Shown piece after piece: positions 32,581 to 39,029 of a stretch of DNA of 64,000 bases (position 1 is the first letter of the stretch; every line of letters begins with the position of its first letter). Source of the DNA: Natronosalvus vescus (lineage in GTDB: Archaea; Halobacteriota; Halobacteria; Halobacteriales; Natrialbaceae); the NCBI RefSeq assembly GCF_023973145.1, contig NZ_CP099546.1:1116001-1180000 (forward strand), in the 5' to 3' direction. The notes under the pieces were generated by a model, which worked only from the letters and a program-made list of their open reading frames with translations, ran no database searches and was not told the DNA's origin. The translations under genes were made by a program, and so were the position numbers.

Positions 32581-32789
32581 ACGCGAGCGAACGGGTGGGA
32601 GGGACAAAACGACGGCGAAGTCGGTGATCGATCCCCTGGATCACCCGTCTTTCGGAAACCGTTTCGGAAACGGCTGTATCTGACTGTCACCCTCCGAACG
32701 CGCCGATATCGACAGATCGACGAATAACGGAAATAACGGAAACACCCCTCCGTCACTTATCAGGATGTCCCTCGAGCCATCGAACGACG

Positions 32790-33536
32790 ATGACACTTCA
32801 CCTTCACCACGATTCGACGCTCGAGTCCGGACTGACGCTGCTTCGCGTGCCGTCGAGACGGTCGACGGCGGTACACCAACTCGTCTGTGATCACCTCACT
32901 GCTGGCGGGGACGGAACGGGCGACGGAACTGAGCCACAGAACGCGTACTGGATCGACGCCGGCAACACGGCGTCGACGCACGTCCTGTACGACGTCGCAC
33001 CTGGTTCGGGTCGGCAGGTGCTCGAGCCCCTGCGGATCGCTCGGGCGTTCACCGCCTACCAGCACCACTCGCTGGTCAGAGAGGTCACGGCTCGAGCCGA
33101 CCCCACTACGGCGCTGATCGTCGCCCCGAACGTAGGACTGCTCTACCGCGACGCCGATCTCGCGGGATGGGAGCGAGACGACCTCCTCGAGTCGACCGTG
33201 ACGATTCTGGCCGAACTCGGACGTTCGCTCGAGTGTCCCGTCCTGATCACCGCCGCCGAGCGCGCGCCGACGAGTACGCTCGAGCACCTCGAGACGGCCG
33301 CTGACTCGATGATCGAGTGCACCCAGACCCGTGAGGGACTCCGATTCGACGGCGACGGGCTCGAGACGATGGGCTACTGGCACGGCCGGTACTGGCAGAC
33401 GACGATCCCCTACTGGGTCGGGTGCTGCGGCCGACTCGACCCCGACGCGGTGCTGGCGGGGGTTCCCCATCGGTCCCATCAGTCGGTCGCCGACCCGCTC
33501 GAGAGGATGGAAATGGGGCCGGAGGTGCTCGCCTGA
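32790..33536 (+). CDS. Inactivated RadA/RecA-like protein of the PolB2 operon
   Basis: A 248-residue protein that matches the RadA core strand by strand: AYWIDAGNTASTHVLYD corresponds to RadA WIDTENTF, and RIARAFTAYQHHSLVREV to VARAFNSDHQ. The normal Walker A (GxxGxGKT) is replaced by a Ser/Arg-rich VPSRRSTAVHQL, and the Walker B position reads LIVAPNV without the acidic residue. It is therefore probably unable to hydrolyse ATP and may act as a DNA- or recombinase-binding subunit. It overlaps the next gene by one base. It is the first gene of a tight three-gene operon. Confidence 0.82.
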   Translation: MTLHLHHDSTLESGLTLLRVPSRRSTAVHQLVCDHLTAGGDGTGDGTEPQNAYWIDAGNTASTHVLYDVAPGSGRQVLEPLRIARAFTAYQHHSLVREVTARADPTTALIVAPNVGLLYRDADLAGWERDDLLESTVTILAELGRSLECPVLITAAERAPTSTLEHLETAADSMIECTQTREGLRFDGDGLETMGYWHGRYWQTTIPYWVGCCGRLDPDAVLAGVPHRSHQSVADPLERMEMGPEVLA

Positions 33537-33934
33537 TGGGCCGAACGAACCCAACGTATCGGGACGCCCTCCGCGGCCTCGAGCGCGAGTGGGCACCGAT
33601 GCGGCGGGCGCTGCGCCGGGAGCGCCAGGCCGATTTCGACCGTCTGTTCGATCGGGCGCGAACCGTCGCGGACGCGGCTGGCTACGCGAATACCGCCGAT
33701 CCCGAGCGGGCGCTGGTGCTGTCGCTGCTGGTGGCCCACGAGACGGCGCTTCGGGAACTCGAGGTTCGCGTGTCCGAACTGGAGGGAGCGGCTTCGATTC
33801 ACGAGGCCGAGGCCGACGCGGGCGACGGCGACGGTGGCAGTGACTGTGATGTCGACGGTGATAGTGGCAGTAACAGTAGCGGTGACGGCGATGTCGACGA
33901 TTCGGCGCAAACGGAGGGGACGACCGACCCGTGA
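33536..33934 (+). CDS. Small helical acidic-tailed protein of the PolB2 operon
   Basis: A 132-residue protein. The first 90 residues are predicted mostly helical and Arg-rich (REWAPMRRALRRERQADFDRL is cut here only for length), followed by a Gly/Asp/Ser tail with GDGDG repeats (about 92-130). Its start overlaps the stop of the RadA-like gene (TGATG), and its stop overlaps the GTG of polB2. Not recognised as a known family. Co-translation suggests it is a subunit or linker of the same complex. Confidence 0.75.
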   Translation: MGRTNPTYRDALRGLEREWAPMRRALRRERQADFDRLFDRARTVADAAGYANTADPERALVLSLLVAHETALRELEVRVSELEGAASIHEAEADAGDGDGGSDCDVDGDSGSNSSGDGDVDDSAQTEGTTDP

Positions 33935-36225
33935 CGTTCGCGTTCGAATTCGAGGACGGCCTCGTTCGGGAGTGGACGCTGCTCGAGTCGGGGTCGAACT
34001 CGAACGATGACGAGGGTTCCCCGGGCGCAACCTACACCGAACGAACCGACTACGTCCCGGCGCTGTTCGTCGGCGGCCCGCTCGAGGCGCTCGAAGCCCT
34101 GCGCACGCACCTCGAGGGCGATCCGAAGGTAGCCGAGATGGAATTCGAGGAACGATACCCCAGCCTTCACGCCCACCACGATGGCGAGCGTGCGACCGTG
34201 TTGCGCGTCGGCCTCGAGCGCGTCGGCGAGGTGGGAACGCTGGCACGAGAGATCCGGGGCGTCTACGCCCGCGAGCACCACGCGCCGGGGACGCTCCGGC
34301 TGTTCGACGTCGACTTCGCGCCCGGATTCCGGTACTGCCTCGACGAGGGGATCGACCCCACCTCGTCGCGCCCGTTGCGGACGCTCGAGATCGGGATCGC
34401 CGATCGAGCGCTCGCCGCGGGCGACGTCTCCCGCCTCGAGATCGACGGCGACCCCGTCACCGGCGAACCGGCGGACGTCCTCTGGTCGCTCGGACGCCGC
34501 CTCGAGCGCCACGACCCGGACGTGCTCGTGGTGAGCCACGGCGACCTGATTCCGACGCTCGAGCGGGCGGCGACCGACGCGGGTCTCGACGGGTTTCAGC
34601 TGGGCCGGCTCCCCGGCTGGACGCAGCTGGCGGGCGAGAGTACGTACACCAGCTACGGCCAGGTCGGTCACTCCCCAGCCCGCTACCGGGTGCCGGGACG
34701 GGCGATCGTCGACACGTCGAACAGCTTCCTCTGGCACCAGTCGGGGCTGGCGGGGCTCGAGTACCTCGTTGGACAGTCGAAGCAACCGCTTCAGGAGGCG
34801 GCCCGGGCCAGCATCGGGACGATCCTGACGGCGATTCAGATCGGCGTCGCCCGGGAGTGGGACGTGCTCGCACCGCTGAACAAGTGGGAGCCGGAGCGAT
34901 TTCAATCCGTGTCGACGCTGCACGCGGCCGACCGCGGCGGCTTCACGTTTTCGCCGGAGGTAGGCTATCACGAGGACGTCCACGAGATCGATTTCGCCTC
35001 GCTGTATCCGCGGATCATCTGCCAACACAACGTGAGTCCGGAGACGCTCGATTGTGGGTGTTCCGTTGACAGCGAGCGAGCCGGGCGAGCCGGTGAGTCG
35101 GCCGACGACGACGGCGAACGGGTTCCCGAACTCGAGTATTACCTCTGCGGGACGGACGGCTTTCTCCCGGCGGTGTTGCGGCCGCTGCTCGACCGACGCG
35201 CCGCCTGCAAGCGACGGCTCGAACGCGGCGTCGAGGACGAGGCCGAAGCCGCCCGATTGCGTGGCCACTCGGGGGCGATCAAGTGGGTACTCGTCTCCTG
35301 CTTCGGCTACCAGGGCTACCGAAACGCGAAGTTTGGGCGGATCGAGTGCCACGAGGCGATCAACGCCTACGCCCGCGACATCGCCCTCACGGCGAAGGCT
35401 CGCCTCGAGGACGCCGGCTGGCACATCGTCCACGGGATCGTCGACAGCCTCTGGGTGGCCCCGCGGGTCGACGACCCGGAACCCATCGCGGACGTGATCG
35501 CCGAGATAAGCTGCGACGTCGGCATCGACCTCGAGCACGACGGCCACTACGAGTGGGTGTGTTTCGTCCCCAGACAGGATGCCAGCGTCGGAGACGGCGT
35601 CACCGCCGGTGCCCTGACCAAGTACGCCGGCAAGCGAACCACCGGTGAGTTCAAGATCCGCGGCCTCGAGTGTCGACAGCGCCACACCCCGCCGTTCATC
35701 GCGGCGTGTCAGCGTGAGTGCCTCGAGGTGCTCGACGATACCCGCGATCCGGAGGCCGTCTGCGATCGCCTGGCGCGACGACTCGGTGACCTGCGCCGGG
35801 GTGACGTCGACGTCGCCGAGGTGGCGATTACCAAACGCGTCTCGAAACCGCTCGAGGCCTACCGACAGGAGACGCTCACGGTGGGTGCGTTGCGGCGGTA
35901 CGCCGCCCACGACGTTCCGCGCCGCCCCGGACAGGCCGTCGAGTACGTCGTCGTCGACGACGATGCTAGCCGAACGCGCGAACGGATTCGGTTGCCGTTC
36001 GAACTCGAGACGGACGTCGTACCTGGAACGGAAGCCAAACTCGAGACGGACGTCGAACTCGAGAACGGCCGCCCACAAGCGCCGCCCTACCACAGCGACT
36101 ACTACGAACGCGCGCTCCTTCGAGCAGGCGAAAGCGTCCTCGCTGCGTTCGGCTGGGACGAGCGGCGAATTCGGCACTATCTCAGTGACGGCCGAACGGT
36201 TCAACTATCGACATTCTCCAGCTAA
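33931..36225 (+). CDS. polB2: Family B DNA polymerase PolB2 with degenerate catalytic motifs
   Basis: A 764-residue family B polymerase homologue. Motif A is kept (D354 in DFASLYP). Motif B is altered (K451-WVLVSCFG in place of K-xxx-N-S-x-Y-G). In motif C the usual YGDTDS reads HGIVDS (501-506), with only the second aspartate (D505) present. The KxY-like segment (ALTKYAGK, about 561-568) remains. In the exonuclease domain the Exo I Asp is absent (RTLEIGIAD, about 150-158) and the Exo III pattern lacks its aspartate (GLEYLVGQ). Archaeal PolB2 proteins are described as probably inactivated; Sulfolobus Dpo2 has nevertheless been linked to damage responses. GTG start, overlapping the previous gene. 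Confidence 0.9.
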   Translation: MTFAFEFEDGLVREWTLLESGSNSNDDEGSPGATYTERTDYVPALFVGGPLEALEALRTHLEGDPKVAEMEFEERYPSLHAHHDGERATVLRVGLERVGEVGTLAREIRGVYAREHHAPGTLRLFDVDFAPGFRYCLDEGIDPTSSRPLRTLEIGIADRALAAGDVSRLEIDGDPVTGEPADVLWSLGRRLERHDPDVLVVSHGDLIPTLERAATDAGLDGFQLGRLPGWTQLAGESTYTSYGQVGHSPARYRVPGRAIVDTSNSFLWHQSGLAGLEYLVGQSKQPLQEAARASIGTILTAIQIGVAREWDVLAPLNKWEPERFQSVSTLHAADRGGFTFSPEVGYHEDVHEIDFASLYPRIICQHNVSPETLDCGCSVDSERAGRAGESADDDGERVPELEYYLCGTDGFLPAVLRPLLDRRAACKRRLERGVEDEAEAARLRGHSGAIKWVLVSCFGYQGYRNAKFGRIECHEAINAYARDIALTAKARLEDAGWHIVHGIVDSLWVAPRVDDPEPIADVIAEISCDVGIDLEHDGHYEWVCFVPRQDASVGDGVTAGALTKYAGKRTTGEFKIRGLECRQRHTPPFIAACQRECLEVLDDTRDPEAVCDRLARRLGDLRRGDVDVAEVAITKRVSKPLEAYRQETLTVGALRRYAAHDVPRRPGQAVEYVVVDDDASRTRERIRLPFELETDVVPGTEAKLETDVELENGRPQAPPYHSDYYERALLRAGESVLAAFGWDERRIRHYLSDGRTVQLSTFSS

Positions 36226-36750: not shown

Positions 36751-36828
36751 TAACTAATGCCTACCCGTACAACGGTAGATACGGATACCGGAACACGAAC
36801 GCGACATTCATCACTTGACATCACAGCC

Positions 36829-37272
36829 ATGCACGTAACTGAGCCGATCGACATCCTGTTGGTCGAGGACAATCCGGGCGATGTTCGACTGACACAAGAA
36901 GCGTTCAAGGAGGGTCGCATCGACAATACGCTCCACATTACCCGCGATGGCGCCGAAGCCATCTCGTTTTTACGCCGCGAGAACGGGCACGAAGATGCCC
37001 CGAAACCGGATCTGATCTTGCTCGATCTGAACCTTCCTCGGAAAAGCGGCGCGGACGTCCTCGAAGTGCTGAAAAACGATCGGAATCTCAGGCGCATCCC
37101 GACGATCGTCCTCACGAGCTCGGAAGCCGAAGAGGACATCGTCTCCTCCTACGAGAACTACGCGAACGCCTACCTGACGAAACCGATCGATCCTGACGAG
37201 TTCATCGACGCACTGCGAACGTTCGAGACCTTCTGGTTGTCAGTCGTGCAACTTCCACCGAGCGAAGAGTAA
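36829..37272 (+). CDS. Single-domain response regulator
   Basis: A 147-residue CheY-like receiver. The acidic pair E13-D14 in LLVEDNPGD, the phosphoacceptor D66 in ILLDLNLP, and K118 in LTKPID are all present. There is no output domain, so it signals by protein-protein contact. The ATG at 36829 opens the domain. It overlaps the following regulator by one base (TAATG). The neighbouring sensor gene is decayed, so the input kinase must be elsewhere. Confidence 0.93.
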   Translation: MHVTEPIDILLVEDNPGDVRLTQEAFKEGRIDNTLHITRDGAEAISFLRRENGHEDAPKPDLILLDLNLPRKSGADVLEVLKNDRNLRRIPTIVLTSSEAEEDIVSSYENYANAYLTKPIDPDEFIDALRTFETFWLSVVQLPPSEE

Positions 37273-39029
37273 TGACAGGGGATACACGTCTCGAGATTCT
37301 CCTGATCGAGGACAATCCGGGCGATGCGCGCCTCATCGAGGAGATGCTTGGGGAAGCGGAGGAACTGATCGAGCGCATTGGAACGGAGCAGGCCGCAGGT
37401 GAGACGCCACACGTCCACCACGAGACCCGACTCGAGAACGGACTGGCCTATCTTATCGGAGCCGACAGCGACGAGGAAGCATCCGGTGACAGTGACGACG
37501 ATACGAATGGTGGCCACAGCATCGAACGCTCAGCGGAGAGCGAAGCCACGACCACCGACGTCGTGCTCCTCGATCTGAACCTCCCGGATAGCACCGGTCT
37601 CGAGACGTTGTCGTCGGTTCTCGAGGCCGCGCCGGAGGTGCCGGTCATCGTCCTCACGGGTCTCCAGGATAGCGATACTGGTATCGAAGCCATTTCGAGA
37701 GGTGCCCAGGAGTACCTCGTGAAAGACGAGGTGACGAGCCCGATGCTCGTGCGAACCCTCTCGCACGCAATCGAGCGCCACGAACAACTTCTCGAGCGCG
37801 AACGACGACGTCAGGAACTCGAGGCGTTGAACCGACTCAACCGGATCGGTCAGGAGATCACCCACGACGTCCTGACGACGTCGACGCGCGAGGAACTCGA
37901 ACAGGCGGTCTGTGACCGTCTCGCTGCGGACGACGCCTATCGATTCGCCTGGATGGGCGAAGTGAGCCCGGGCGGCGATCAACTCGTACCGCGGGCCGTT
38001 GCCGGGGTCGAGGACGGCTATCTCGACGAGGTGACGATCACCGTTGGGAACGATGCCACGGGACAGGGGCCTTCGGGCAAAGCGATTCAGACGGGGACGA
38101 TACAGGTGGTGCAGGACATCGTGACGGCGGACAACTACGGCCCCTGGCGGGAATCTGCCCACGAGCGAGGATACCGTTCCTCGGCGGCAATCCCGATCAG
38201 TTACGAGGGGCTTCGGTACGGCGTCCTCAACGTTTACTCGGCCCGAGCAGACGCATTTGCGGAGTACGAGCGGACGTTGCTCGGTCGCCTCGGCGACGTC
38301 GTTGCGCACGCGATCACGGCGCTCGAGCGAAAGGAGGCGTTATTGACCGACGCCACGCTCGAACTCGAGTTCGTTGCCGAGGAGACGCTTCCGGAGCTCG
38401 TCGCGGTGACACAGGACGACGGAAGCGAGGTTCGCTTCAACCAATTTATTCGCTCGAACGAGCGTGTACTGGCGTATGGCTCCGCCAGCGGCGTGGAACA
38501 GGAGACGCTGGAGGATGCAATCGAACGGATCGATGGGCTCAGCGACCTTCGGGTTCTGACCCCGGGTCAGGAAGAGTACGATTTCGAACTCACCAAAACG
38601 GATGGCATCGACCTGTTCGAGACGGTTGCGACCCACGGTGGCCGGGTCAACTCGGCTCGCATCGAAGACGACTCGCTCCGCTTTGTCATCGAACTCTCCC
38701 AGCAAAGTGAGACCGCACAGGTGATCGAAACGGTCGAGTCGGTTTGCCCCGGGGCGACGTTCGTCGCCCAGCGAACGGCCGAACGAAGCGATCCCTCGAT
38801 TCCTGGCTCGAGCGTCATCGAGACGAAACTCACCGATCGGCAACTCGACGCGCTCGAGACGGCCTACCGGTCCGGCTTCTTCGACTGGCCGCGTACCTCC
38901 ACGGGCGAGGAGGTCGCTGAACGGCTGGACATCTCGCCGGCCACGTTCACCCAGCACCTGCGGGCGGCCGAACTGAAGTTCTTCGATGCGGTGTTCGCCG
39001 GCGAGTCGGCGTCTCCTGGCGAGGAGTGA
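37272..39029 (+). CDS. Response regulator with GAF and Bat-type HTH output (REC-GAF-HTH)
   Basis: 585 residues. An N-terminal receiver has D101 as phosphoacceptor in VVLLDLNLPD. It contains a 30-residue acidic insertion (about 65-95), unusual within a receiver. Next come a linker helix, a GAF domain (about 190-345; WMGEVSPGGDQLVPRAVAG), the bacterio-opsin activator-associated domain (about 360-505), and a C-terminal HTH_10 (about 520-575, ATFTQHLRAAELKFFDAV). Such proteins activate transcription in response to light, redox or ligand cues. Start directly follows the upstream stop, so it is cotranscribed with the single-domain regulator. Confidence 0.92.
   Translation: MTGDTRLEILLIEDNPGDARLIEEMLGEAEELIERIGTEQAAGETPHVHHETRLENGLAYLIGADSDEEASGDSDDDTNGGHSIERSAESEATTTDVVLLDLNLPDSTGLETLSSVLEAAPEVPVIVLTGLQDSDTGIEAISRGAQEYLVKDEVTSPMLVRTLSHAIERHEQLLERERRRQELEALNRLNRIGQEITHDVLTTSTREELEQAVCDRLAADDAYRFAWMGEVSPGGDQLVPRAVAGVEDGYLDEVTITVGNDATGQGPSGKAIQTGTIQVVQDIVTADNYGPWRESAHERGYRSSAAIPISYEGLRYGVLNVYSARADAFAEYERTLLGRLGDVVAHAITALERKEALLTDATLELEFVAEETLPELVAVTQDDGSEVRFNQFIRSNERVLAYGSASGVEQETLEDAIERIDGLSDLRVLTPGQEEYDFELTKTDGIDLFETVATHGGRVNSARIEDDSLRFVIELSQQSETAQVIETVESVCPGATFVAQRTAERSDPSIPGSSVIETKLTDRQLDALETAYRSGFFDWPRTSTGEEVAERLDISPATFTQHLRAAELKFFDAVFAGESASPGEE

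Follow-up and report, generated by a model that had tools for sequence, protein, structure and literature searches.

The three genes at positions 32790-36225 of a 64,000-nucleotide stretch of Natronosalvus vescus DNA (hereafter the window) very likely form a chromosomal haloarchaeal PolB2 mutasome operon, iRadA-PPB2-PolB2, which would encode a damage-tolerance polymerase complex. The source genome is a single contig of 3.84 Mb, of which the window covers positions 1116001-1180000, and the operon is therefore chromosomal. All three genes lie on the plus strand. The first, iRadA (32790..33536; ATG start, 248 amino acids), has a RadA/RAD51 fold without ATPase site or N-terminal domain. It is followed by PPB2 (arCOG07300; 33536..33934; ATG start, 132 amino acids), which begins with MGRT, ends in an acidic low-complexity tail and fits the PPB2 described by Timinskas et al. 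2025 (PMC11791011). The third gene encodes the family B DNA polymerase PolB2 (33931..36225; GTG start, 764 amino acids; NCBIfam NF004418 match). Successive genes overlap by 1 nucleotide (nt; TGATG) and 4 nt (GTGA), so that the operon arrangement and overlaps given in a preliminary description of the locus are confirmed by the coordinates of the open reading frames (ORFs).

The assignment of the third gene is clear. PolB2 passed a single curated model, NF004418, with 809.6 bits (cut-off 692), and it groups with PolB2-type polymerases, not with the replicative PolB3; its relatives include annotated haloarchaeal plasmid copies. The AlphaFold2 (AF2) model (predicted local distance difference test, pLDDT, 84) matches the 9N and KOD polymerases across the full length. 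In family B polymerases the metal-binding pair consists of the motif A Asp and the second Asp of motif C. Motif A of the window protein (DFASLYP) retains D354. Motif C (HGIVDS) aligns with YSDTDG of KOD-type polymerases, where the first Asp is exchanged for Ile503 and the second is kept as D505. Hence, the loss of both metal-binding carboxylates that marks a dead polymerase was not seen.

Conservation was analyzed in 152 PolB2 homologues, drawn from haloarchaea and from further classes of the same phylum; TACK and bacterial PolB2 lie outside this set, a scan of genome contigs having yielded haloarchaea alone, and the comparison with Sulfolobus PolB2 is drawn from papers. The metal ligands D354 (codon 34990..34992, plus strand) and D505 (35443..35445, plus strand) are invariant (152/152 each), as are K427 and K451, while R423 is found in 151 and H501 in 150 sequences. 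Strict invariance is rare in this protein (28 of 764 positions), and D354 and D505 alone reach it among the 129 acidic residues of the window PolB2. A D(K/R) motif upstream of motif A (D334-R335, codons 34930..34935, plus strand) has Asp in 147/152 and Arg or Lys in 152/152 homologues; this motif touches the PPB2 arm in published models (PMC11791011). In Exo I and Exo II no acids stand opposite those of KOD-type polymerases, and the candidate exonuclease positions vary freely among homologues. The contrast between invariant metal ligands and drifting exonuclease positions inside the same protein is our strongest argument that the polymerase is unlikely to be dead. By these criteria of residue conservation, PolB2 is probably active.

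The preliminary description had suggested the opposite, namely that both enzymes have lost catalysis and that the operon encodes a purely structural or regulatory replication or repair complex. We consider this unlikely. It is favored by the missing ATPase site of iRadA, by the lost first Asp of motif C and the altered motif B, and by the published view up to 2014, which took PolB2 as inactivated (PMC4104785). However, the only invariant acids of PolB2 are its two metal ligands, R423, K427 and K451 are kept, and Sulfolobus Dpo2 is active despite the same loss in motif C. In nucleotide incorporation Dpo2 was reported to be as active as Dpo1, with the second Asp serving as metal ligand (PMC8764526). 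The degenerate motifs described earlier, HGIVDS and the altered motif B, are correct; the second motif C Asp, the motif A Asp and the motif B Lys are all present. Recovery of both motif C Asp residues and of the P-loop Lys of iRadA had been named as an argument against two dead enzymes; the first Asp and the Lys are still absent, whereas the metal-binding pair is there. Several points weigh against an active, damage-related PolB2. The Asn and Tyr of motif B are replaced by V455 and F458, with the Lys kept as K451, and the metal ligands might, in principle, be invariant for reasons of structure or DNA binding instead. No activity of a haloarchaeal PolB2 is on record in the cited literature. The polB2 gene is dispensable in Halobacterium NRC-1 (PMC1906834) and in Haloferax (PMC7776575), in both cases with no damage phenotype reported there. 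Moreover, the ultraviolet (UV) motif TTTCACTTTCA, found upstream of the operon in other haloarchaea (see below), is not in the window operon's own promoter.

For iRadA the loss of catalysis is evident. The single sequence gave no Pfam match, TIGR02237 (E=0.15) being its only hit. A profile of 35 sequences matches RadA/RAD51 in the PDB (E=7e-11), and the AF2 model (pLDDT 86.6) yielded a Foldseek match to DMC1/RAD51 (E=8e-11). The RadA-like core, initially described as clear, is therefore recognizable by profile and fold but not from the single sequence. The P-loop position reads VPSRRSTAVHQL (strand 14-20, loop and helix 27-40 in the AF2 model) and shows no conserved Gly, Lys or Thr in the alignment. 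The catalytic Glu is lost (WIDTEN to WIDA(R/G)N), and at Walker B VDS is changed to APN, the Asp being replaced by a Pro that is conserved in 34/35 sequences. The degenerate Walker A and the missing Walker B Asp were thus rightly noted before, and of the two enzymes held to be without catalysis iRadA is indeed one, while PolB2 with D354, D505 and K451 in 152/152 homologues is unlikely to be the other. That the P-loop of arCOG07763 is severely deteriorated had been pointed out in PMC4104785. With 248 amino acids in total and a core fold beginning at residue 14, iRadA cannot accommodate an N-terminal oligomerization domain. Judged by alignment and predicted fold, iRadA is a RadA/RAD51 homologue that has lost its ATPase site and is not a recombinase.

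The middle gene, whose role had been regarded as unknown, corresponds to arCOG07300/PPB2, for which a structural proposal has been published. Its N-terminus reads MGRTNPTYR. Across 38 sequences, 7 of them from other classes of the phylum outside haloarchaea, M1, G2, R3 and R9 do not vary. The MGRT start and the invariant Arg3 and Arg9 match the signature in PMC11791011 and thereby identify the gene. In that study the N-terminal arm contacts iRadA, the D(K/R) motif of PolB2 and DNA. A comparison of PPB2 with PDB sequences gave no credible match. The acidic low-complexity tail at the C-terminus (window 33800-33931) varies in length within the genus, and an alternating D/T run is present in locus L043.

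The three genes are found together far beyond the window. In 37/40 haloarchaeal loci iRadA, PPB2 and PolB2 all lie on one strand, always in that order. The same order occurs in 62/81 further loci, from partly redundant species; several of the others are truncated at the end of a contig or flank. This recurrence argues against a chance arrangement. The gene overlaps recur across the Natrialbaceae as well, and it is very probable that the three window proteins function jointly. Two PolB2 genes (L057:7866-9968, minus strand; L065:5983-8142, plus strand) were also noticed for which neither iRadA nor PPB2 could be detected over several kilobases. In the source genome iRadA and PPB2 are present in one copy each, a search for second copies having found none; the genome carries two further Rad51-family genes besides iRadA.

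The distribution of the operon is patchy, with PolB2 in 190/292 Halobacteria genomes. Since many relatives are on plasmids and polB2 is dispensable in two species, one might regard the operon as a decaying remnant under weak selection. The probability of this is minimal. All three reading frames are intact, catalytic residues are invariant, and the ratio of non-synonymous to synonymous substitution rates (dN/dS) within the genus is far below 1 (PolB2 0.22-0.26, PPB2 0.28-0.32, iRadA 0.35-0.41). In addition, overlaps and synteny are kept in the genus, which also shares the flanking genes, and the window PolB2 falls into a well-supported Natrialbaceae clade of 17 rows (Shimodaira-Hasegawa-like approximate likelihood ratio test, SH-aLRT, 100). 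A viral reservoir of PolB2 was sought and the idea rejected. A scan with the window protein found none, and an alignment scan gave one distant relative with 32% identity (L188:2-1546), located at the end of a contig that IMG/VR lists as viral.

Taken as a mutasome, the operon suggests the following mechanism. PolB2 has lost its proofreading as well as the first Asp of motif C, keeps D354 and D505 as two-metal site together with the predicted basic dNTP-binding residues R423, K427 and K451, and would most likely extend distorted or mismatched primer ends beyond lesions. iRadA, a RAD51 core without the ability to bind or hydrolyse ATP, would serve as a scaffold and recruitment subunit. A PPB2 oligomer, a predicted small helical adaptor, would share the scaffold and recruitment function, and its invariant MGR(T) N-terminus may enter the cleft between iRadA and PolB2. 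The complex may contact the sliding clamp via the C-terminal LSxF tail of PolB2. In the window this putative clamp-binding tail is LSTF (codons 36205..36216, within the tail region 36195-36222, plus strand). The pattern [LI][STAGQDPE]x[FYW] occurs within the last 20 residues of 107/122 PolB2 proteins compared to 11% in shuffled sequences. It resembles the end of a PCNA-interacting protein (PIP) box, but is devoid of the canonical spacing of Gln and the second aromatic residue. A clamp-binding motif was described in PolB2 or iRadA of some mutasome members (PMC11791011). PolB3, the sole other family B polymerase of the source genome, is encoded by a separate gene and ends with QTGLDSFM.

Instead of lesion bypass, the complex might mainly serve replication restart or alternative initiation, given an association with orc1/cdc6. 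These genes adjoin polB2 on haloarchaeal plasmids, which is also reported in the literature (PMC1906834, PMC4104785), and iRadA is RAD51-like. However, none of the ORFs inspected near the window operon was recognized as orc1/cdc6, and published Sulfolobus genetics favor mutagenic tolerance. Sequence data alone cannot separate restart from bypass. We regard a main role in restart or initiation as quite improbable, and bypass by the mutasome as the better explanation.

The upstream region of the window operon carries conserved elements on the plus strand. A distal tandem repeat of TTTCGGAAA (32650..32670) is shared by Natrialbaceae loci, where it likewise precedes iRadA. It is followed by a proximal tandem CGGAA-N4-CGGAA (32728..32741) and, around 30 nt before the first ATG, by CTTATC (32756..32761), a putative TATA-like element. 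Tandem CGGAA recurs upstream of the operon in relatives, and [CG]TTAT[CG] is conserved at this position. In Natrialbaceae the region upstream of iRadA carries tandem CGGAA repeats and the TATA-like element, which follows 14 nt later in the window. The composite 32728-32761 is unique in the source genome. A genome-wide CGGAA regulon was considered and rejected, as the composite is found only at the window operon and other TCGGAA tandems are unlike its promoter. Scans for sigma-70 promoters and terminators were uninformative for this archaeal DNA.

In other haloarchaea the same place upstream of iRadA is occupied by TTTCACTTTCA, mostly 45-64 nt before the gene. This motif has been described in Halobacterium NRC-1, where it precedes UV-induced radA1 as well as other genes (PMC2556686). 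Exact copies precede iRadA in L054, L055, L058, L061, L062 and L116, and 11 further loci have one mismatch. The source genome's own radA (L245, G000:C1:1857341) also carries TTTCACTTTCA, approximately 60 nt before the ATG. Among 92 non-redundant upstream regions, 16 contain the UV motif when one mismatch is permitted, 36 the tandem CGGAA and none both; the hypergeometric probability of this zero overlap is 1e-4, a significance inflated by shared ancestry. For comparison, random stretches of 280 nt taken from these loci contained the UV motif in 0.15% and tandem CGGAA in 1% of cases, and shuffled DNA contained tandem CGGAA at approximately 1%. The two mutually exclusive promoter signatures are a new lead, obtained mostly from relatives. 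They suggest that lineages with TTTCACTTTCA have the PolB2 operon in the same UV regulon as radA. Because of these signatures we infer that the operon is damage-regulated in haloarchaea, and in the window damage would probably induce expression from the tandem-CGGAA promoter.

A second new lead comes from a plasmid-rich lineage. Here, a gene for an RNase H-like protein of around 215 amino acids begins at the PPB2 stop codon or shortly behind it, on the same strand and before PolB2. This stand-alone, putative DEDD-type exonuclease gene lies directly after PPB2 in L067 (8157-8807, minus strand), L070 (11951-12595, minus strand), L076 (11128-11772, minus strand) and L219 (6001-6648). It matches Pfam RNase_H_2, and its DEDD residues appear intact (FDIET, GGFD, HNxAD). 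A sample of 292 genomes provided the 30 closest copies; in all but one of them (29/30) iRadA and PPB2 are located directly upstream. The window's genus is without this gene. It is not mentioned in the main text of PMC11791011 or in the neighborhood section of PMC4104785. The exonuclease may possibly provide proofreading in trans to a PolB2 that lacks a working exonuclease site of its own. On plasmids, the segment between exonuclease and PolB2 holds variable cargo (L070:8149-12595, L076:8005-11772, L219:6777-7948), comprising a TnpB-like ORF (L070), helix-turn-helix (HTH)/DUF7342, DUF6516-annotated and transcriptional-regulator genes.

Tentatively, these observations may be combined into a broader proposal. 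Haloarchaeal PolB2 might be an active translesion polymerase within the archaeal damage regulon, in which lineages alternate between two damage promoters, the TTTCACTTTCA UV box shared with radA and the tandem CGGAA box, and the plasmid lineage might add proofreading in trans by the exonuclease gene between PPB2 and PolB2. With the promoter signatures and the exonuclease gene, both inducibility and proofreading in trans become testable. Directly downstream of the operon, a response regulator and an HTH regulator are encoded (window 36757-39029); the pair is kept beside the operon in most Natrialbaceae loci and a regulatory link is possible.

What looked like a puzzle of dead enzymes becomes a damage-tolerance polymerase that can be put to the test in genetically tractable organisms (Haloferax, Halobacterium). 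Should haloarchaeal PolB2 turn out to be active and induced, it would represent an inducible mutagenic family B polymerase outside Sulfolobus, built like bacterial Pol V. The exonuclease-bearing plasmid operons, if correctly interpreted, would show how an error-prone polymerase regains proofreading as a separate subunit.

The same gene families are found in the haloarchaeal arCOG07763/arCOG07300/PolB2 neighborhoods of Makarova et al. 2014 (PMC4104785), in H. volcanii HVO_A0065 and in NRC-1 polB2. Unlike the present reading, that work predicted PolB2 inactivation, and the polB2 of NRC-1 is carried on a plasmid, in contrast to the chromosomal window copy. Sulfolobus Dpo2 (PMC8764526, PMC7390963) shares motif C HxxxD, the lack of proofreading and an operon in which it is accompanied by a radA-like gene and arCOG07300. 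Biochemical and genetic work covers the Sulfolobus protein only. Dpo2 extends mismatched ends, and Sulfolobus genetics point to mutagenic tolerance (PMC8764526, PMC11791011). The closest counterpart is the PolB2 mutasome operon of Timinskas et al. 2025, which has the same gene order and orientation, an inactive RadA core without N-terminal domain, a PPB2 with MGRT start, and a PolB2 with dead exonuclease, lost first motif C Asp and D(K/R) motif. A PolB2:iRadA:PPB2(3) heteropentamer was modelled for 40 other complexes (PMC11791011). The window operon differs in being haloarchaeal and chromosomal, in its 1- and 4-nt overlaps, the longer acidic PPB2 tail, the LSxF polymerase tail and the tandem-CGGAA promoter. 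The Pol V mutasome (UmuC-UmuD'2-RecA) belongs to another polymerase family, its RecA is an active ATPase, and no relationship between the small subunits is known. The likeness, an analogy drawn in PMC11791011, lies in the composition of a polymerase, a RecA-fold partner and a small oligomer with an N-terminal arm.

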